Part shown: one piece after another, positions 4,317 to 54,031 of the stretch | Layout: every line of letters starts with the position of its first letter | How positions within the stretch are numbered: the stretch's first letter is position 1 | Origin: Polynucleobacter acidiphobus | Lineage (GTDB): Bacteria > Pseudomonadota > Gammaproteobacteria > Burkholderiales > Burkholderiaceae | Direction: 5' to 3' | NCBI RefSeq assembly: GCF_003065385.1 | Contig: NZ_CP023277.1 | Location: 1,018,829-1,082,828 of the forward strand | Length of the DNA: 64,000 nucleotides | Made by a program: the position numbers and the translations under genes | The notes under the pieces: generated by a model | What the model saw: the letters and a program-made list of their open reading frames with translations, nothing else | What the model was told of the DNA's origin: nothing | The model's database searches: none

Positions 4317-5261
4317 ATGGACACATTAGCCCAACTCAAACGCTATACCACCGTGGTTGCTGATACTGGCGACTTTGAGCGGATGCGCGCCTTTGCTCCG
4401 CAAGATGCAACCACCAATCCATCGCTCATTCTCAAGGCGGTCTTACTGCCGGAGTATCAAGCCTTGGTTGCATCGGTGCAGCGTGATCATCCCAAGGCCT
4501 CCCCTACCCAATTAATTGATCGGATCTTAGTGGCATTTGGGGTGGAGATCCTGCGCATTGTTCCGGGTCGGGTCTCAACCGAAGTTGATGCACGTCTATC
4601 CTTCGATACCGCTGCCACCATTGCGAAGGCCAAAGAGATCATGGCGCTCTACGCGGCAATGGGCATCCCCCGCGAGCGGGTTTTAATCAAACTCGCTAGT
4701 ACCTGGGAGAGCATTGTGGCAGCTCGTGAGCTCGAGCAAGAAGGCATTCATTGCAATATGACTCTGCTTTTTTCTGTGGTGCAAGCGGTGGCATGCGCTG
4801 ATGCTGGGGCAAGATTGATTTCCCCATTTGTGGGGCGCATTAGTGATTGGTATAAGAAGTCCTTAGGCGATCAATGGTCTCTCGAGCAATACGGGGGCGC
4901 CAATGATCCTGGGGTGCAATCGGTGCGTAGCATCTATACCTATTACAAGCACTTTGAGATTGAAACCGAGATCATGGGAGCGAGTTTTCGTAATACCAGC
5001 CAGATCTTGGAGCTTGCAGGTTGCGATCTCCTCACCATTAGCCCTGAACTCTTGGCTGAGCTGCAAGCCAGTAATGATTTGGTGATTCCTAAATTACTAG
5101 TTCGGGATGCTAAATCAGCCAGTGTGGAGCGCTTGAACTTGGATCAGGCAAGCTTTGGGAAGCTCTTGGCAGAGAACGCCATGGCTTCTGAGAAACTCCA
5201 AGAAGGCATTCGCGCCTTTTGTGCTGATATTGAGAAACTCGAGGCCTTGCTAATTCGTTGA
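4317..5261 (+). CDS. tal: Transaldolase
   Basis: Transfers a dihydroxyacetone unit between sugar phosphates in the pentose phosphate pathway. The 314 residues are the normal length of the TalB type. Visible elements: [12 protein letters not shown] near residues 30-41, the Schiff-base lysine K125 in VLIKLAST, and the [12 protein letters not shown] phosphate-binding region. It reads away from rpiA and meets rlmB tail to tail, with the two stop codons directly adjacent (5261/5262). Confidence 0.96.
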
Positions 5262-6023
5262 TCACTTCTTCGGTGATTTGACCTGCAATCGCTGCCGGCG
5301 CGCCTCATAGAGCGTCACACCCGTGGCTACCGAGACGTTCAAGCTCTCGACTGCCCCTTGCATCGGAATATGCACCAATTGATCGCAGGTCTCGCGGGTT
5401 AAGCGCCGCATACCCTCACCTTCCGCCCCCATGACGATCGCAGTCGGTCCTTTGAGGTCAATGTCGTAGATCGATTCATCGGCCTCATCATCGGTACCAA
5501 TGATCCAAATCCCCAGCTCTTGCATCTCACGCATAGTTCTAGCAAGATTGGTCACCGTAATGATTGGGATCACCTCGGCAGCGCCACTAGCAACCTTACT
5601 CACGGTGGCATTGATGCTAGCTGAGCGATCCTTAGGAACGATCACACCATGCACCCCTGCACCATCGGCTGCTCGTAAGCAGGCACCTAAGTTATGGGGA
5701 TCGGTAATACCATCGAGCACTAAGAGTAAGGGTGGATCATTTTTAGCATCCAAGCTATCTAATAGTTCTGGCAAGGTTCTCGCTACAGAGATGCCCTCTG
5801 CCATCGCCACGATCCCCTGATGACGATCGTGACCAGCAAGGTTATGTAAGCGCTCGGCATTGGCAGTGTACAAACGCTTGCCTAAAATGGGTTCTGCTTG
5901 CTTAATGAAGTCCGCCATGCGACGATCGCGTCTAGCAGGGTCGTAGTACACCGACTGAATACTTTGCGGATCAACCCGCAAACGCGTCTGCACCGCATGA
6001 AATCCCAACAATAACTGCTTCAT
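5262..6023 (-). CDS. rlmB: 23S rRNA (guanosine-2251-2'-O)-methyltransferase RlmB
   Basis: SpoU-type methyltransferase that 2'-O-methylates G2251 of 23S rRNA in the peptidyl-tRNA site. 253 residues: an N-terminal substrate-binding domain (about 1-75), then the SPOUT knot with its three motifs, [12 protein letters not shown] (about 105-120), [12 protein letters not shown], and [15 protein letters not shown]. The ATG overlaps the end of rnr by 4 nt, so the two are transcribed and probably translated together, a common rnr-rlmB arrangement in proteobacteria. Confidence 0.95.
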
Positions 6024-9294: not shown

Positions 9295-9328
9295 GTTTAC
9301 CAAAGTTTTGTATATACAAATGGTAAAC
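9295..9328. promoter_or_regulatory. Nested palindromic operator of the toxin-antitoxin pair
   Basis: A perfect 14-bp palindrome TTTGTATATACAAA (9307-9320) is flanked by 8-bp inverted arms GTTTACCA (9295-9302) and TGGTAAAC (9321-9328). The region abuts the toxin start codon at 9294 and must contain or overlap its promoter. This is the usual position for binding of the antitoxin or toxin-antitoxin complex. Seen directly; regulatory role inferred. Confidence 0.6.
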
Positions 9329-9553
9329 CAATACAGAAAATTGAGCAATACAAGTGTGTTTGAAATGATCAACTGTGCGATCAAAGATCTGCGTACCCTG
9401 ACTTAGGGACCGCAGATAGATCTTTAAGAATCAGAAACAAGCTTGAGGTCGAAGCGTAAATTAGTTGTGTCGATCCACAACCTTTTAAAGATTGTCTCTG
9501 GCCTCAATACCAGTCTGGAAAAACTATATTTAATGAGGCTAGGTTATTGAGGG

Positions 9554-10897
<1,344 letters not shown>

Positions 10898-10938
10898 TCA
10901 TTTTTTATTGATTTAGCCTAATTGTAGTGATCAAGCCA

Positions 10939-12114
10939 CTAGGCACGTGATTTTAGTTCCCAGCCAGAACCCTGCTTAATAAGCTCGCGTTGGCACTCAA
11001 ACTCCTCAGAATGTGCGTCATCCCCTTTGTAAACCTGGATCACCACCTCACCCTCGGCGCGTAACTCAGCAATGCGACGGTTTAAAGCAGGGTCGTCCGA
11101 CCATGGCGCCAGAATAGCCTGGCGCTTGATGGAAATCGTCGATAGGTCGGCTAGCGTAAGCAGGTCAAGTGAGAACCCCGTGGCAGGACGTGAGCGACCG
11201 AAGGCTTGGCCCACATGGTCATAGCGACCACCGCGCGCAATCGGCTGAGGTAGACCATCAACATAGGCCGCAAACATCACACCGCTGTGGTACTGGTAGC
11301 CACGCAAATCTGCGAGATCGAGTGAGAGCTCGAGTTGGTCAGATAAGCGACTGATCGCCTCAATCAAACGCTCAAGGTCTTTGAGAGACTGCTCAATGAT
11401 GGGCTGATTGGGCAATGCCAAGGGACCAGAACGGGCGTTGGCCAAGACCTCGGCACATGTTCCATTGAGTTGCAATAATGCCAATAAAGGCTTGCTAATG
11501 GAGGGCGCAAACTGGCTCACCCATTGAGCGAGACTGGGCCGGTCTTTGGTTTGCAATAAGGTGTAAAGGGTCTCGGTATCGGCATGACTTAATACCAAAT
11601 CGCCCAAGATTCCTTTGAGTACACCAGCATGCGAGAGATCCAAATAGATCTTGCCAATGCCAGCTTGACTGAGTGTTTTCAGAAGAAGTTGGATTGCCTC
11701 GAGATCGGCTTCCCATCCCGCATGCCCATAAATCTCGGCACCCAGTTGCAACTCCTCACGTGAGGTCGAGCCTGGTGGTGTGCGAACGCGTGCGACCGAC
11801 CCTGCGTAGCACAGACGGGTTACACCCTCACGATTAAGAAGGTGTGCATCAATGCGTGCTACTTGAGGTGTGATATCAGCACGCAAGCCTAGGGTACGAC
11901 CAGAGAGTTGATCAACGAGCTTGAAGGTCTGCAAATTAAGATCAGACCCCGTACCAGTCAAGAGTGAATCCAAGAACTCCAGTAATGGAGGACTAACTAG
12001 TTCATAGCCATAGGACTGATACAGATCGAGCGAGCGACGCCGCAAAGCCTCGATCTTGCGAGCCCGGGCTGGCAATACGTCAGCAATATCCTCGGGCAAT
12101 AACCAACGGTTCAT
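10939..12114 (-). CDS. hisZ: ATP phosphoribosyltransferase regulatory subunit
   Basis: Class II aminoacyl-tRNA-synthetase-like paralogue of HisS that lacks tRNA charging and regulates the short-form HisG enzyme, the first step of histidine synthesis. 391 residues with motif 2-like (GLRADITPQVARI) and motif 3-like (ARGGRYD near 295) stretches but a weak C-terminal anticodon domain. It sits between hflC and purA, the usual place in Burkholderiales, and starts 11 bp after hflC ends. Its presence predicts a short HisG elsewhere in the genome. Confidence 0.93.
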   Translation of the reverse strand: MNRWLLPEDIADVLPARARKIEALRRRSLDLYQSYGYELVSPPLLEFLDSLLTGTGSDLNLQTFKLVDQLSGRTLGLRADITPQVARIDAHLLNREGVTRLCYAGSVARVRTPPGSTSREELQLGAEIYGHAGWEADLEAIQLLLKTLSQAGIGKIYLDLSHAGVLKGILGDLVLSHADTETLYTLLQTKDRPSLAQWVSQFAPSISKPLLALLQLNGTCAEVLANARSGPLALPNQPIIEQSLKDLERLIEAISRLSDQLELSLDLADLRGYQYHSGVMFAAYVDGLPQPIARGGRYDHVGQAFGRSRPATGFSLDLLTLADLSTISIKRQAILAPWSDDPALNRRIAELRAEGEVVIQVYKGDDAHSEEFECQRELIKQGSGWELKSRA

Positions 12115-12125
12115 GGTGAACTCGA

Positions 12126-12995
12126 TTAGTTCTTCTTCTGCATGAACCGGAAGAAGTCGTTACTCGGCTCGATCACCATCACGTCTTTCTTATCCTTGAA
12201 CGAATTGCGATAAGCTTCAAGGCTACGATAGAACTGAGCAAACTGTGGATCACGGTTAAACGCATCTGCGTATAAAGCGGTGGCACGCGCATCGCCCGCT
12301 CCCTTAATCCGCTGAGCATCACGATAGGCCTCTGCCAAGATCACATCACGTTGACGTTCCGCACTCGCCCGAATCTTGTCAGACTCCGCCGCACCTGTGG
12401 ATCGCAACTCATTTGCAACGCGCTTACGCTCGGCTTCCATTCGGCGATAGACCGAATCACTGATCTCGGCAAGGAGGTCAATCCGCTTGAGGCGCACGTC
12501 CACGATCTCAACACCAATGGCTTTGGCATCGTCCTCGACTTTCTTCTGGATGCCTTGCATTACCTGATCACGCTGCTCAGAAATAATCTCGCGGATGGTT
12601 CGTTTAGTGAACTCCTCGTTTAACGCCGAACGAATCAGTTGGTTCATGCGATCTGTTGCTAGGCGCTCATCGCCACGGAAGCTCACGAAGAACTTGAGGG
12701 GATCAATAATGCGCCACTTCACATACGAATCCACCAAGAGGTTTTTCTTCTCAGCGGTGATGAAGCGTTCCGCATCGGGGTTATCAATCGTCATGATGCG
12801 ACGATCAAAGAAGATGACATTTTGGAATGGTGCAGGCAACTTGAACTGCAGGCCAGGCTCTTCAATCACTCGTACGATCTGACCGAAGGCAAAGACCACT
12901 GCGAACTTACGTTGATCCACCACAAAGATACAAGAGCTAATCAAATAGAAAGCAACGATTAGACCCAGAATAAGACCAAGGAGACGATTAGGCAT
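12126..12995 (-). CDS. hflC: HflC, FtsH modulator subunit
   Basis: SPFH/band-7 membrane protein that forms the HflKC cage around the FtsH protease. 289 residues: one N-terminal membrane segment (about 5-26), a periplasmic SPFH domain (about 27-180), then a charged coiled-coil region (about 180-250) containing RMEAERKRVANELRSTGAAE. It follows hflK by 20 bp and precedes hisZ by 11 bp. Length and motifs are normal for the family. Confidence 0.95.
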   Translation of the reverse strand: MPNRLLGLILGLIVAFYLISSCIFVVDQRKFAVVFAFGQIVRVIEEPGLQFKLPAPFQNVIFFDRRIMTIDNPDAERFITAEKKNLLVDSYVKWRIIDPLKFFVSFRGDERLATDRMNQLIRSALNEEFTKRTIREIISEQRDQVMQGIQKKVEDDAKAIGVEIVDVRLKRIDLLAEISDSVYRRMEAERKRVANELRSTGAAESDKIRASAERQRDVILAEAYRDAQRIKGAGDARATALYADAFNRDPQFAQFYRSLEAYRNSFKDKKDVMVIEPSNDFFRFMQKKN

Positions 12996-50404: not shown

Positions 50405-50480
50405 TCCCTGATAGCTCAGTCGGTAGAGCGACGGACTGTTAATCCGCAGGTCCCTGGTTCGAGTCCAGGTCGGGGAGCCA
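50405..50480 (+). tRNA. tRNA-Asn (anticodon GTT)
   Basis: 76 nt with encoded CCA. Acceptor TCCCTGA (50405-50411) pairs with TCGGGGA (50470-50476) with one G-U; D arm GCTC/GAGC, anticodon loop CTGTTAA, T loop TTCGAGT. A tyrosine integrase gene starts 85 bp downstream, making this tRNA the probable integration site of the following element. Confidence 0.96.
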
Positions 50481-50491
50481 AGCCTTAAGAA

Positions 50492-50510
50492 TTAAGTGTT
50501 GCGCGAGCAA
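50492..50510 (+). repeat. 19-bp inverted repeat, left copy
   Basis: TTAAGTGTTGCGCGAGCAA, 12 bp after the tRNA-Asn CCA end. It matches the reverse complement of 52162-52180 at 17 of 19 positions. Could be an integrase arm-binding site or a relic of the attachment site. Confidence 0.55.
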
Positions 50511-50565
50511 AAAGTAGCTTCGGGAAATCCGCAGCGTTTTTGAACACTAATTTGAAGGGCTCGCT

Positions 50566-51486
50566 ATGTTACTCAACGACGCTATTTATGCGTATCAAAA
50601 GAATTATCAGGGCAAAGATCGGTCAACGACCGCACGCCTTAAGTTTTGGTCTGAACAGCTCGGCCACCACGACGTTAAAACCCTAACCTCACTGGATATT
50701 GACGATGCCATCGGCATCTTAATGCAGCGCCCCGCCCAGACCTGTTTGCGTAAAAAGATCGGGAAAAATGAAGTGGGCGAGGATGTTTACGAGATCCGTT
50801 ACCGCGATTTGGACCGCCCAAAATCTGAAGCAACCCTAAATCGATACATAGCAAGCCTGGGTTCGGTCTTTCGCTTCATTAAGAAAAACCGTATGATTCG
50901 CGGCTTTGTGAGCCCCATTAGTGGCGTGGAAAAGTTCAAAGAATCGCAAGGTAAGCTTGAATTCTTAACCGAACCCGAAATTGAAATCCTTATTGCCAGC
51001 GCCCGGAGTGCGCGCTGGAAAAAACTAGCTTGTTTAATTCGCCTGGCCTTTGTCACGGGAGTGCGCTCGGGCGCCCTCAAGGCGATGCGCTGGAAGCACG
51101 TGAATTGGGAATTGCGAACGATCACCTTTCCGATTACAAAGAATGGCGAACCTCACACCGCGCCCTTAAATGATGCGTGCATTGAAGAATTGCGGCGCAT
51201 TTATTCGGACCTCAGCCGTCCCGATGACCTGGTTTTTTGCGGTAAATTTAGAAATAAATCCCATGATTTCAAATCCGGTTACACCACTTTGATCCAAAAA
51301 CACTTCCCTGGAAGGGCTTTGACGTTTCATAGCCTGCGGCACAGCTGCTGTTCACACCTGGCAAAAATGGGGGTACCGTTACCTGTAATTGCCTCGTGGA
51401 TGTCCCACAAAAGCTTACGGATGGTGAGTCGTTATGCACATATCAGCACGGCCGATCGGGAACACTATTTAGGGAGTGCATTTTGA
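50566..51486 (+). CDS. Tyrosine-family site-specific integrase
   Basis: 306 residues: an N-terminal SAM-like core-binding domain (about 1-120) and the catalytic domain with Arg in FVTGVRSGALKAMRW (about R167), HSLRHSCCSHLAKMG (His-x-x-Arg, about 258-272), and the nucleophile Tyr in MVSRYAHIS (about 291). All catalytic residues are present, so it could be active. AAGGG precedes the ATG by 7 nt. Its stop overlaps the next gene as TTGA. Confidence 0.9.
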   Translation: MLLNDAIYAYQKNYQGKDRSTTARLKFWSEQLGHHDVKTLTSLDIDDAIGILMQRPAQTCLRKKIGKNEVGEDVYEIRYRDLDRPKSEATLNRYIASLGSVFRFIKKNRMIRGFVSPISGVEKFKESQGKLEFLTEPEIEILIASARSARWKKLACLIRLAFVTGVRSGALKAMRWKHVNWELRTITFPITKNGEPHTAPLNDACIEELRRIYSDLSRPDDLVFCGKFRNKSHDFKSGYTTLIQKHFPGRALTFHSLRHSCCSHLAKMGVPLPVIASWMSHKSLRMVSRYAHISTADREHYLGSAF

Positions 51487-52094
51487 AAAAAAGTAAAACA
51501 GTTAAATCAAACTACCCATTCATGGAGCCTACAAATTTTGAACCAGGTTACCTCAAACAACTCGGCGAAAGAATCTTGGCAAAGGAGGATACTTTTTTCG
51601 TATTAGGAATTAGCGGCATTCCACCTGAAAAGCTATCAAAAACAAGGCTTATTGAGGAGCATAAGGTACTTACAGCTTTAGTAATCAGTACATTAAAAGA
51701 CAAAACACCAAAGCCGATAACAAAATTTTCAAAAAAAGGATTTCTATCGGACTTGGGTATTAAAGATCTTTCTCCTAAAGTATTGATTCGCCTGGCAGTA
51801 CTTCGATTAAACAACATACCTGATTATCCACCGATAAGACCTCCTGAAAATATCGGTTTTGAAAAAAACTTTGAGCTCCCCGATCTTCGATCACACAAAT
51901 TTCTTGCAAATTCACCGTTAAAAATAATATCTCGACCATCGAAAGATGGGGCGCCGTTCATGAAGGAATTAAAACGGCATATGGTTAATGTAATCGAGGA
52001 TCATCTTGGGAAACCGCTTTCAGAGGTGGATAGGATGATGATTCTTGATATGGATAGAAGACGAATTCAACAATTATTGGAAGATCTAAACTAA
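51483..52094 (+). CDS. Unknown protein coupled to the integrase
   Basis: 203 residues from a TTG at 51483. The start is chosen because GGGAG lies exactly 6 nt upstream and the TTGA overlap with the integrase stop implies coupled translation; a longer open frame runs inside the integrase and is rejected. The protein is Lys- and Pro-rich, with no signal or membrane helix and no recognised domain; the C-terminal 60 residues (MKELKRHMVNVIEDHLGKP onward) look helical. Possibly an integration accessory protein, by position only. Confidence 0.65.
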   Translation: MKKSKTVKSNYPFMEPTNFEPGYLKQLGERILAKEDTFFVLGISGIPPEKLSKTRLIEEHKVLTALVISTLKDKTPKPITKFSKKGFLSDLGIKDLSPKVLIRLAVLRLNNIPDYPPIRPPENIGFEKNFELPDLRSHKFLANSPLKIISRPSKDGAPFMKELKRHMVNVIEDHLGKPLSEVDRMMILDMDRRRIQQLLEDLN

Positions 52095-52161
52095 AAAATT
52101 AAGGAGCGCGTTTAGAGAGTGCGCTAGGCAAAGCATTTAAAGGCCGCTAAATTAATTTCAG

Positions 52162-52180
52162 TTGCTCGCACAGCACTTAA
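52162..52180 (-). repeat. 19-bp inverted repeat, right copy
   Basis: TTGCTCGCACAGCACTTAA, the imperfect reverse complement (17/19) of the copy at 50492-50510. It lies in the 111-bp gap after the integrase-coupled gene, 26 bp before the next ATG. Confidence 0.55.
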
Positions 52181-52205
52181 CCTGAAACAAATTTAGAGGA
52201 TTTAT

Positions 52206-52448
52206 ATGTCAAATAATTCGCAGCCTGTCCCGTTCCGCCAATGGTATCAATCGCATTTGAGTGCAGATTTAAAATGGCTCCTTCCAACAATTTCATCCCT
52301 TGCGTACCTATTACGCAAGAAAAAGAGCGTCCTTTTAGAGCTTAAATTAATTGAGGTCATTCCAAGCAGAGGATATTTTATTTATCCGGACAAATTTACC
52401 CAAGATGCGATAAAGCCATTATTTTTAACAGGGGCCGCGAATGAGTGA
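52206..52448 (+). CDS. Unknown 80-residue protein of the mini-element
   Basis: 80 residues with a good AGAGGA ribosome binding site 5 nt before the ATG. It has a central LAYLLRKKKSVLLELKLIEV helix pair and a Tyr/Ile/Phe-rich end. Size and position (after int, before replication) would suit a small DNA-binding regulator or excisionase, but no motif proves it. The stop overlaps the next ORF start by 8 nt. Confidence 0.55.
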   Translation: MSNNSQPVPFRQWYQSHLSADLKWLLPTISSLAYLLRKKKSVLLELKLIEVIPSRGYFIYPDKFTQDAIKPLFLTGAANE

Positions 52449-52989
52449 ATATCAAAGAAGACGAGCACCTGCATTCCAGGAATACGCTGCCGACATGCTT
52501 GCCAATGCTCAGTTCCGGATGATGACCCTAGAAGAAAAGGGGTTACTAACAATTCTCAGATATGAATGCTGGGTAAACGATCGTGTTCCAGCTCAATATA
52601 GTGACCTTGGTCTATACCTGGGAGTTGATTCAGAGAAAATTTCCACGCACCTTACTGCTAAGGTCTTAACGTTTTTTAAAGCAGAAAATGAATTTTTAGT
52701 ATGTCCTGAATTAGATTCCTATCGGGCTAAATTAATGGAAAGAACTAAAAAGCTTGCTGAAGCAGGATCTGCAGGTGGAAAGAAAACACAAAAAATAAAG
52801 GCAAATCAAGCCTGCCCTGAAGCCTCGCTTAAGCCTGTGAGTAGAGACGAAATAAATAAAGATGAAAAAAAATTAAACGATATTAAGCCTTTAAATGAAG
52901 GTGTTACTAATCAATTATCAGATCCATGGATTGATGAATATAATGCCACTCCCCATGCAACAAACCTTTATATAAATACAACACGATGA
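52441..52989 (+). CDS. DUF1376-like phage replication/YdaU-type protein
   Basis: 182 residues. The first half (about 8-90) fits the DUF1376/YdaU winged-helix domain found beside phage replication genes: PAFQEYAADMLANAQFRMMTL, then EKGLLTILRYECWV and a glycol-type HTH with a Leu/Tyr-rich strand. The second half is Lys/Asn/Glu-rich and looks disordered. Probably binds DNA during element replication; this is by analogy with phage loci. Overlaps the preceding gene. Confidence 0.6.
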   Translation: MSEYQRRRAPAFQEYAADMLANAQFRMMTLEEKGLLTILRYECWVNDRVPAQYSDLGLYLGVDSEKISTHLTAKVLTFFKAENEFLVCPELDSYRAKLMERTKKLAEAGSAGGKKTQKIKANQACPEASLKPVSRDEINKDEKKLNDIKPLNEGVTNQLSDPWIDEYNATPHATNLYINTTR

Positions 52990-53082
52990 AATTGAAATAA
53001 AACTTAAAAATTCGATGGTTGATATAAAGCAGGTTCCAAAGCAAATTTTCCACACACAACATTTTGAAAACAGGGGTATTCA

Positions 53083-53508
53083 ATGAATTTAAACTTATCA
53101 AATAAACCAAAAATTGTGAGGCCTATACCGTTAGCTAATTGGATTGCCGATCCAAACACATGGGATAAATATACTTTTATCAACGAAGTTTCTGAATTCA
53201 TGTGGGAGGCATATGAAAATACAACAGAACAAGATCAACATGCCCTGGCAATGCTTGCCGAAGTTCTAGAAACATTTGTAATGTGCTGCAAAGATATTGG
53301 AAAGAATGGTTTGGTTGTAACGCACCATAATGGCGTGACTGGTAAAAATCATCACGTTGAAATTAGGGATAAGACAATATCTAGAGCAGTATTACTAATG
53401 AACGAATTGGGATTAACGCCCAAAGGCAGATTTCCAATGAAACCAAGTCCCTCGCCGCAATTTCAGAGATTTATACAGGGACCTAAAGGGCAAGGCTTAA
53501 AGGCATAG
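53083..53508 (+). CDS. P27-type phage terminase small subunit-like protein
   Basis: 141 residues. An N-terminal helical part (WDKYTFINEVSEFMWEAYE), a middle AMLAEVLETFVMCCKDIG, and the family-typical end of the DNA-binding region: NHHVEIRDKTISRAVLLMNELGLTPKGRF (about 92-120, in part). GLTP-x-x-R with an upstream conserved R/K pattern is characteristic of P27 TerS. A GGGG lies 9 nt before the ATG. No large subunit follows. Family assignment is from pattern recognition, not a search. Confidence 0.62.
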   Translation: MNLNLSNKPKIVRPIPLANWIADPNTWDKYTFINEVSEFMWEAYENTTEQDQHALAMLAEVLETFVMCCKDIGKNGLVVTHHNGVTGKNHHVEIRDKTISRAVLLMNELGLTPKGRFPMKPSPSPQFQRFIQGPKGQGLKA

Positions 53509-53528
53509 ATTTCTGGACTTTAATTTAA

Positions 53529-53846
53529 TTAATTTTTATAGATCTCGCATAGGCTACTCACGATCTTGATGGCGTTTTCGTCTGCGATCCGGTAGATCAT
53601 CTTGGTACCATCGCGACGTTTATCAATTATTCCGAGTTCTCGTAACGTCGCCAATTGCTGGGATACTAAGGTTTGGCGAACGCCCACGATCTGAATTAAT
53701 TCACTTACAGTACGTGGCTGTGTGCACAGCTCACAAACCATTCTTAGACGCAGTGGTGTTGACAATGCCTTAAGCACTGCCGCGATCTCTTCCACCAACT
53801 CATCGGTGATGGTATTTTCAACTTCAAGAACTGCTGACTTTGGCAC
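53529..53846 (-). CDS. ArsR-family transcriptional regulator
   Basis: 105 residues: winged helix-turn-helix with LSTPLRLRMVCELCTQPRTVSELIQIVGVRQTLVSQQLATLRELGI (positions about 27-72, in part) and wing RRDGTKMIYRI. The two Cys of the ELCTQ area differ from the classical ELCVCDL metal motif, so the signal (metal or redox) is unclear. It is 2 bp after the 60-residue gene on the same strand, and the two probably share a transcript. Confidence 0.85.
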   Translation of the reverse strand: MPKSAVLEVENTITDELVEEIAAVLKALSTPLRLRMVCELCTQPRTVSELIQIVGVRQTLVSQQLATLRELGIIDKRRDGTKMIYRIADENAIKIVSSLCEIYKN

Positions 53847-53848
53847 GA

Positions 53849-54031
53849 TTAATCCTCTAACTCAAAATAAGTATGTTCTTTACGGTATTGGCAATTGGCA
53901 TCGTGGTTACTAACCTTGCCATTAATGTCCGTCGTGAGTCGTTTGCAATACTGGCAACGGTACTCATAGAGTTTGCCATCTACTTTTTCTTGTGGATAGT
54001 CGATATAGAGCGTTTCTGGATAAAAACTCAT
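53849..54031 (-). CDS. Small putative zinc-binding protein, 60 residues
   Basis: 60 residues rich in Tyr, Cys and His, with CQYCKRL then NHDANCQY (Cys27, Cys30, His43, Cys47 region), a pattern able to bind one zinc ion. A strong AAGGAG lies 7 nt before the ATG, so it is probably a real gene. Unknown family; it precedes the ArsR regulator. Confidence 0.62.
   Translation of the reverse strand: MSFYPETLYIDYPQEKVDGKLYEYRCQYCKRLTTDINGKVSNHDANCQYRKEHTYFELED

Follow-up and report, generated by a model that had tools for sequence, protein, structure and literature searches.

A candidate five-gene cos-type phage satellite behind a tRNA-Asn gene in Polynucleobacter acidiphobus

What is the role of five bacterial genes that begin with an integrase beside a tRNA-Asn gene, end with a phage-type small terminase subunit (TerS) and occupy, from tRNA to terS, about 3.0 kb? 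The locus lies in a 64,000-nucleotide stretch of Polynucleobacter acidiphobus DNA (NZ_CP023277.1, positions 1,018,829 to 1,082,828; hereafter the window) from a genome of 1.85 Mb in a single contig. Polynucleobacter is widespread in freshwater. An earlier note, written from the letters of this DNA, had proposed either a very small phage satellite or a decayed prophage. Our analysis supports the first proposal, as the gene set recurs without the large terminase subunit (TerL), portal or capsid and a predicted cohesive-end (cos) region precedes terS. Judging from sequence comparison, the element is very likely an intact cos-type satellite, integrative and very small, which would borrow TerL and capsids from a helper phage and supply its own TerS with a matching site.

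Six relatives of the element were found, five in genome records and one in a metagenome contig. They come from Polynucleobacter cosmopolitanus MWH-MoIso2 (L083), two other Polynucleobacter strains (71A-WALBACH, L084, and Latsch14-2, L085), two betaproteobacterial metagenome-assembled genomes (L086 and L087) and a viral-collection contig (L004) whose genes behind the element read as bacterial. The gene order in these relatives is int, orf2, orf3, a gene of 188–206 aa, a family-A DNA polymerase of ~583 aa, a small winged-helix-like gene that was seen in all but L086, and terS, spanning 5.1–6.0 kb from the tRNA or contig start to the end of terS. A tRNA gene precedes int in five relatives (tRNA-Lys in L083, L085 and L004; tRNA-Asn in L084 and L086), and the L087 contig starts just before int. 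The window integrase is 30–37% identical to those of the six, and a DUF1376-fold gene takes the place of their polymerase module. Using queries from one group of related phages only, we found no match to TerL, portal or capsid at E 1e-5 in 13 satellite or island loci or in the 64-kb window, lytic genes not being searched for separately. Discovery of these genes inside a complete prophage, which the earlier note had named as grounds for abandoning the satellite idea, did not occur in the related loci. That such a gene set recurs six times indicates that it is not a product of chance.

The strongest evidence that the element is a satellite is what appears from its sequence to be a phage-type cos region directly upstream of terS. 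The phage form of this region was derived from the best 80 of 543 viral relatives of TerS, which comprise two satellite loci and 78 loci of HK97-type phages. On the stretches examined, a TerL homolog is encoded in all 78 phage loci, a portal protein in 71 and a capsid protein in 58. The isolate Methylophilaceae phage P19250A belongs with these phages, its TerL being 70.5% identical to that of L007. A Gibbs search of the noncoding sequence before terS in 65 of the 78 loci, selected by length and duplicate filters, yielded the motif GCAAGCGCG../ccCAATctCgCACAAAtTGAGTTGg..taGGGGGgt. Of the phage contigs, 44 have their start within this stretch, 29 of them at one and the same base, and in contig L078 an adaptor-like sequence, which we take to be an Illumina adaptor, ends exactly there. 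The common start and the adaptor junction together indicate that this base is a physical DNA end, the cos cut, which lies roughly 50–100 bp before the TerS start in most phages. A rigid 48-column model was built from 57 loci, eight with misplaced or cut motifs having been dropped (the contig-start count includes these eight).

The phage loci also contain an upstream box, GAAACTTAAA. It is present with at least 9 of 10 matches in 17 of the 21 loci that have sequence on both sides (L015, L063, L076 and L080 lack it at this threshold), at 41 bp before the cut in 16 and at 42 bp in one, and shuffled stretches reach 9 of 10 matches anywhere in 0.85% of cases. The box model used 19 loci, omitting L076 and L080. 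The far ends of four of five long phage contigs carry GAAACTTAAA. A search for GCAAGCGCG or GCAAGCTCG at far ends was set aside, as matches occurred in 4 of 10 records and none was at the far end.

How closely do the satellites resemble the phages in this region? A 54-bp ungapped block directly before terS is common to the seven satellites, at 59–93% identity, and when the block model was built without the window, the window copy scored 36.0, the next best position on either strand of the 64 kb scoring 3.8. All seven also have the box upstream of the predicted cut, each with 9 of 10 matches, at a distance of 42 bp in L083 and of 41 bp in the others; the window box is the best plus-strand match to the phage box model in the 64 kb. 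The distance from box to cut holds at 41 bp while that from cut to terS varies. For each of the seven satellites, the best forward match of a composite cos model derived from phages only falls within the element upstream of terS, scoring 15–34 in six and 0.5, tied at one decimal, in the window. The same model places a site before terS in two satellites of a second type, described below (37.3 in G016 and 18.0 in G159), and gave no such match in G202, also of the second type, or in G571, G014 and G031. The packaging site predicted in the window resembles a phage cos, as expected of a cos-type satellite.

The likeness to phages is uneven across the site. The half around the cut is above chance in all nine satellites with a site (null fraction at most 0.001 of 2000 draws; 0.001 for the window). 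In contrast, the half 16–35 nt beyond the cut scores from −21.5 to +1.8 in the satellites, compared with a phage median of 20.6 (5–95% range 10.0 to 24.5); here the window is the least unlike the phages (null fraction 0.019). In HK97, the DNA complexed with TerS begins 10 nt past the cut (PMC10370121), which is the side on which the phage motif lies here. HK97 is a complete phage, however, whereas TerS is here encoded on a satellite without TerL. We infer that the satellites have kept a cut compatible with the TerL of a helper and have changed TerS together with its binding site.

The earlier note had called the TerS protein P27-type, a family assignment that stands (Terminase_4, PF05119, 45.2 bits against a gathering score of 24.7; phrog_83) and that does not extend to the NCBIfam equivalog TIGR01558, for which the score is below the cut-off (28.9 versus 45.6). 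The absence of any TerS match above threshold, the other outcome on which that note would have given up its proposal, was thus not encountered. A profile of the satellite TerS proteins had no match among sequences of solved structures. In a tree of 127 rows, the seven satellite TerS proteins and all 43 database homologs form one clade (support 98/97) apart from 71 phage rows, and 41 of those rows, the window included, form a tighter clade (100/99). The tree is unrooted and carries a long-branch warning, and gene context is known for a minority of the database proteins. The satellite label requires two changes on this tree, as L002, the second-type TerS of G016, is also labeled satellite. The next closest TerS proteins in viral contigs, at 38–46% identity, are from HK97-type phages; that of P19250A is 39% identical. 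A search of 186 genomes from the genus with the TerS profile returned nine matches, of which six are strong (the window genome and, by coordinates, L083–L087), so that 6 of 186 carry this TerS type, and three are weak and belong to the second type. None of the nine lies in a phage-like locus, in a search that had no phage-type TerS as a positive control; it is this profile search that suggests a lack of resident helper prophages.

If the element is a satellite, how might it move? Infection by a P19250A-like HK97-type phage would switch on orf3, whose product would act with the integrase to excise the element, and the orf4 protein would then start replication to a head-to-tail concatemer. The element's TerS would bind a site of its own immediately past the cut and recruit the helper TerL, which would cut at the shared cosN and fill a normal helper head. 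By arithmetic, a head of 36–41 kb would hold about 11–13 copies of 3.1–3.3 kb each. The particle would inject this DNA into a new cell, where the integrase would insert the element at tRNA-Asn.

Several observations weigh against a satellite with a functional cos. By sequence, the window cos is the weakest of the set: its cut-site half scores −5.3, below the phage 5–95% range of 1.6 to 34.5, and its composite score comes third among plus-strand positions of the 64 kb, with two minus-strand positions scoring as high or higher. Scored by itself, the cosN part of the window takes 76th place among the 6184 positions of the element, whereas that of the other six (10544–12144 positions) ranks first in L083, L085, L086 and L087, second in L084 and fourth in L004. 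The rigid 48-column phage model has its best forward match at this place in only two of the seven satellites (shuffles scored as high in 0/200 for L083 and 24/200 for L085), and the window is missed. The sites tested had been preselected by earlier scores, and the null fractions are not fully independent. The right end also lacks a landmark, as the 30 bases of the tRNA 3′ end have no second copy within 6 kb past terS in the window, L004, L083, L084, L085 or L086 (best 15–18 of 30 matches; less than 0.5 kb is available in L086). The orf3 model had no Foldseek match in the PDB at E 0.001 or better, and orf3 no blastp match to the orf3 genes of other members. Viral contigs searched with the 188-aa gene, orf4 and int yielded no further satellite of this kind, and among the best 80 of 543 viral TerS loci the only satellites are L003 and L004, which are one element, L003 repeating part of L004. 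Finally, GGGGTATTC may double as a ribosome binding site; its end is 1–5 nt upstream of the terS start in all satellites except L087, where the gap is 29 nt.

This last point would be expected if the block upstream of terS were only the promoter and ribosome binding site of terS, with its likeness to cos due to common descent and packaging directed by another signal. We regard this as very improbable: the matching region in phages is a physical DNA end that in most of them lies well upstream of the TerS start, and the box keeps its spacing to the cut and not to terS. That the element is a decayed or deleted prophage, with int and terS left from the opposite ends of a temperate phage that has lost its middle, was the alternative in the earlier note. 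A large deletion would likewise leave an integrase and TerS without other structural genes, and attR was not found. We nevertheless disfavor this explanation and think it very unlikely to be right, since the compact layout of the element is repeated at six further loci, which differ in integrase and use two tRNA targets, since the TerS proteins of the group form their own clade, and since int, orf2, orf4 and TerS are all full length compared with their homologs; the absence of phage-like loci among the nine TerS-profile matches points the same way, within the limits of a search lacking a phage-type control.

It is also conceivable, with a similarly small probability, that an integrative element no longer carried in particles has kept terS and cos for regulation or defense, as a TerL decoy or packaging poison. 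This idea would fit the putative accessory genes that follow terS in relatives, such as that for an HNH protein in L085, and also G571, where a distant TerS persists close to a probable DNA methylase (read from sequence) and no integrase was seen. However, a cut site and a box at fixed spacing are what packaging needs, and the members differ in integrase and tRNA target, pointing to continued transfer.

How does the proposed satellite compare with known systems? The phage-inducible chromosomal minimalist islands (PICMIs) of Vibrionaceae (PMC10803314) are likewise small, with few genes and no capsid-remodeling genes, and contain int followed by a variable and often overlapping gene (iolg), then a small gene for regulation or excision and one for replication. 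A gene overlapping the int stop (iolg) is present in 21 of 35 PICMI subfamilies (PMC10803314), and orf2 resembles it in position, overlapping the int stop by 4 nt. The prototype, PICMI115, has 6.1 kb and six genes, is integrated at fis and carries alpA and a primase; its authors detected neither a terS homolog nor, in the genome of the helper, a cos or pac site, and the DNA ends in its particles were random (PMC10803314). In contrast, the window element has five genes in ~3 kb, sits at tRNA-Asn instead of fis, and combines TerS with cos; of int, alpA and prim, family searches recognize int alone. This candidate tailed-phage satellite is half the length of PICMI115.

Phage-inducible chromosomal islands (PICIs) of Gram-positive and Gram-negative bacteria (PMC6092414) share with the element an integrase, a small regulator or excision gene, a replication gene, sometimes terS, and, as judged for the element by TerL, portal and capsid, the lack of structural genes. 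Some PICIs carry the cos sequence of their helper, and EcCICFT073 has cos sites without terS and needs that of its helper (PMC6092414). The window element differs in that TerS and cos occur together and in size, ~3.0 kb (5.1–6.0 kb in relatives) as against ~15 kb. It has neither a divergent repressor pair nor a recognized AlpA or MerR regulator, its five genes being on one strand and orf3 having no such family match, and a DUF1376-fold protein stands in place of a primase/replication initiator module. The P19250A-like phages (KX815270) share with the satellites the TerS family and, in related contigs, the layout of cos next to terS, but they are full phages that encode TerL, portal and capsid proteins (38.7 kb for P19250A, and as much as 41 kb in contigs), and the TerS-binding half of their cos is different. 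Among the matches listed in a literature search there was no report of a satellite in Polynucleobacter, and the 12 of 220 matches listed for virion-encapsidated integrative mobile elements (VEIMEs) included nothing relevant.

On balance we lean toward a broader interpretation, in which P19250A-like aquatic phages, probably virulent ones, are exploited by a previously undescribed family of minimal satellites to which these elements belong. The family would share a portable TerS-cos cassette of split design, with the cut half remaining helper-like for TerL and TerS and its binding half having changed in step, so as to select satellite DNA alone. The cassette would be joined to at least two integration and replication backbones in one genus, including the G016/G159 type, and five genes in ~3 kb may suffice. 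The concrete prediction is that packaging is redirected with only TerS and a half-changed cos. The data point to a satellite-helper system in Polynucleobacter, with the P19250A-like group as candidate helpers.

The features of the element are collected in Table 1. Much of what the earlier note had described held up: the intact integrase directly follows tRNA-Asn, all five genes are on the same strand, and the two small genes between int and orf4 have no significant family match. The A/T-richness described for the whole group is seen from orf2 to terS (GC 0.37–0.40) and not in int (0.49), which is close to the neighbors read as thiD and cobA (0.51–0.52).

Table 1. Positions, in window coordinates, of the element, its genes and its predicted sites
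Feature	Position	Strand	Basis or remark
tRNA-Asn, integration target; left end of element at tRNA 3′ end	50405-50480	+	ARAGORN
Inverted repeat, first arm, upstream of int	50492..50510	+	19 nt, 89% complementary to 52162-52180
Tyrosine integrase, 306 aa	50566..51486	+	PF00589, 97.8 bits; phrog_1
orf2, 203 aa, TTG start, 4-nt overlap with int	51483..52094	+	No significant family match
Inverted repeat, second arm, 25 nt upstream of orf3	52162..52180	-	89% complementary to first arm
orf3, 80 aa, candidate excisionase/activator	52206..52448	+	Winged-helix-like predicted fold
orf4, 182 aa, DUF1376-fold protein, candidate replication initiator	52441..52989	+	Foldseek, database homologs
Predicted cos upstream box AAAACTTAAA (phage form GAAACTTAAA), 41 bp before predicted cut	52999..53008	+	Phage box model
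Predicted cos block common to satellites; predicted cut between 53039 and 53040	53028..53081	+	Leave-window-out model; alignment to phage cut
terS, P27/HK97-type small terminase subunit, 141 aa	53083..53508	+	PF05119, phrog_83, tree
Whole element as far as delimited	50481..53508	+	Left end by relatives; right end not fixed, attR not found

The integrase contains, in order, GVRSG, TKNGE, HSLRHS, SHKS and RYAH, which presumably hold the catalytic residues. The gene at the place of orf2 is hypervariable among relatives, the orf2 genes being largely dissimilar to one another; besides the window protein itself only two database homologs were found (P0060 and P0061), both of the same length. The homologs P0061, P0049 and P0003 of orf2, orf4 and terS each have a longest contig of 5334 bp, so that a single shared contig may be inferred only.

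The earlier note had listed an excisionase and a primase as missing. Family searches recognize neither, and the absence is less complete than supposed, as orf3 and orf4 are candidates for roles in excision and replication. The AlphaFold2 model of orf3 (pLDDT 80.5) is winged-helix-like, and searches that included Pfam and NCBIfam gave no AlpA or MerR family match. Because orf3 is only 16–20% identical to the orf3 genes of five relatives (L087, with a short frame of 70 aa, was left out of the alignment) and has no blastp match among them, its homology is one of position and size and is not shown by sequence. Its fold, together with a location 14–27 nt downstream of a lineage-specific repeat, makes it a candidate for the excision role.

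This repeat is an inverted pair, with one arm upstream of int and the other upstream of orf3. It is present in all seven satellites, in each case above the best of 100 shuffles, though only narrowly so in L087 (10.5 versus 10.0), and among nine elements tested it is found in eight, including G014 and not G031. The arms lie 0–11 nt from the tRNA end (in the six elements with a tRNA) and 14–27 nt before orf3 (in the seven). The sequence is private to each integrase lineage, with cross-lineage scores of at most 8.5 except for 11.5 between G031 and a longer stretch of G014. The repeat is a putative site for the orf3 protein or the integrase and would tie excision to expression of an orf3-terS operon. 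In other satellites, AlpA activates its own expression (PMC6092414) or suffices for excision (PMC10803314).

For orf4, described in the earlier note as DUF1376-like, no DUF1376 match was obtained in Pfam or NCBIfam; the likeness is instead one of fold, the top Foldseek matches among viral models being DUF1376 proteins (E 2.7e-6; mean pLDDT of the orf4 model, 70), and two of its homologs are named DUF1376 in their source. The database holds 14 homologs besides the window protein itself, at 36–68% identity and 89–100% coverage, and the gene at the same place in G031 is 34.5% identical over 142 residues. Foldseek found no PDB match at E 0.001 or better, and an orf4 profile none among sequences of solved structures. 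The element has no primase match, and the only sequence match in it related to replication links orf4 weakly to the primosomal protein family phrog_9327 (E 0.0086). On the basis of its predicted fold, orf4 is a candidate for the replication role.

The integration site is a tRNA-Asn gene adjoining a thiD-like gene. Of the corresponding thiD-tRNA-Asn loci in 20 relatives, 18 have a terminator-like hairpin after the tRNA, judged by eye; the other two are L099, which lies close to the end of a contig, and L106 (G014), where an element of this kind is present. A search for the tRNA terminator behind the window element found none. Behind terS, on the opposite strand (53529-54031), are an arsR-type regulator and a 60-aa gene, which may be cargo or a rearranged neighbor; arsR was identified by Pfam and the remaining genes there were read from sequence. 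The genes behind the element have no match behind tRNA-Asn in the 20 relatives (only 1.2 kb is available for L099), so that the empty site cannot be aligned on the right.

Further features were seen in the relatives. The polymerase is encoded by L084:7718-9469 and its equivalents in L004, L083 and L085–L087 (PF00476, 74 bits, tested in L084); to our knowledge, a family-A DNA polymerase of its own is unusual for an element of 5–6 kb. L004 encodes a second, different Terminase_4 protein (5184-5597; 53.5 bits) shortly before the satellite-type TerS. Just behind terS, on the opposite strand, are genes for an HNH protein in L085 (10530-11357) and a 401-aa protein of unknown family in L004 (6197-7402), which may be accessory or defense cargo. 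A palindrome like CCAACGGACCAACGATCCGTTGG, which partially matches the tRNA-Lys anticodon arm, lies behind terS at L084:10455-10477, L085:10485-10507, L004:6146-6166 and L086:5445-5467 and was not seen behind the window terS.

Other islands share parts of the arrangement. G031, at tRNA-Lys, has a related int with orf3-like and orf4-like genes and no TerS, and G014, at the same tRNA-Asn site, has a related int with an overlapping orf2. G571 (about 9302-11677 in the reverse complement of L149), whose genome of 1.3 Mb is from the order, has a tRNA-Ser island with the distant TerS mentioned above, the probable methylase gene nearby and no integrase seen. The second satellite type in the genus is represented by L136 (G016) and, in reverse complement, by L147 and L148 (G159 and G202); it encodes an integrase of ~400–460 aa, a primase-like protein of 275 aa, an AAA-type protein of 348–349 aa and a TerS of 152–158 aa, with a small DNA-binding gene in G016.

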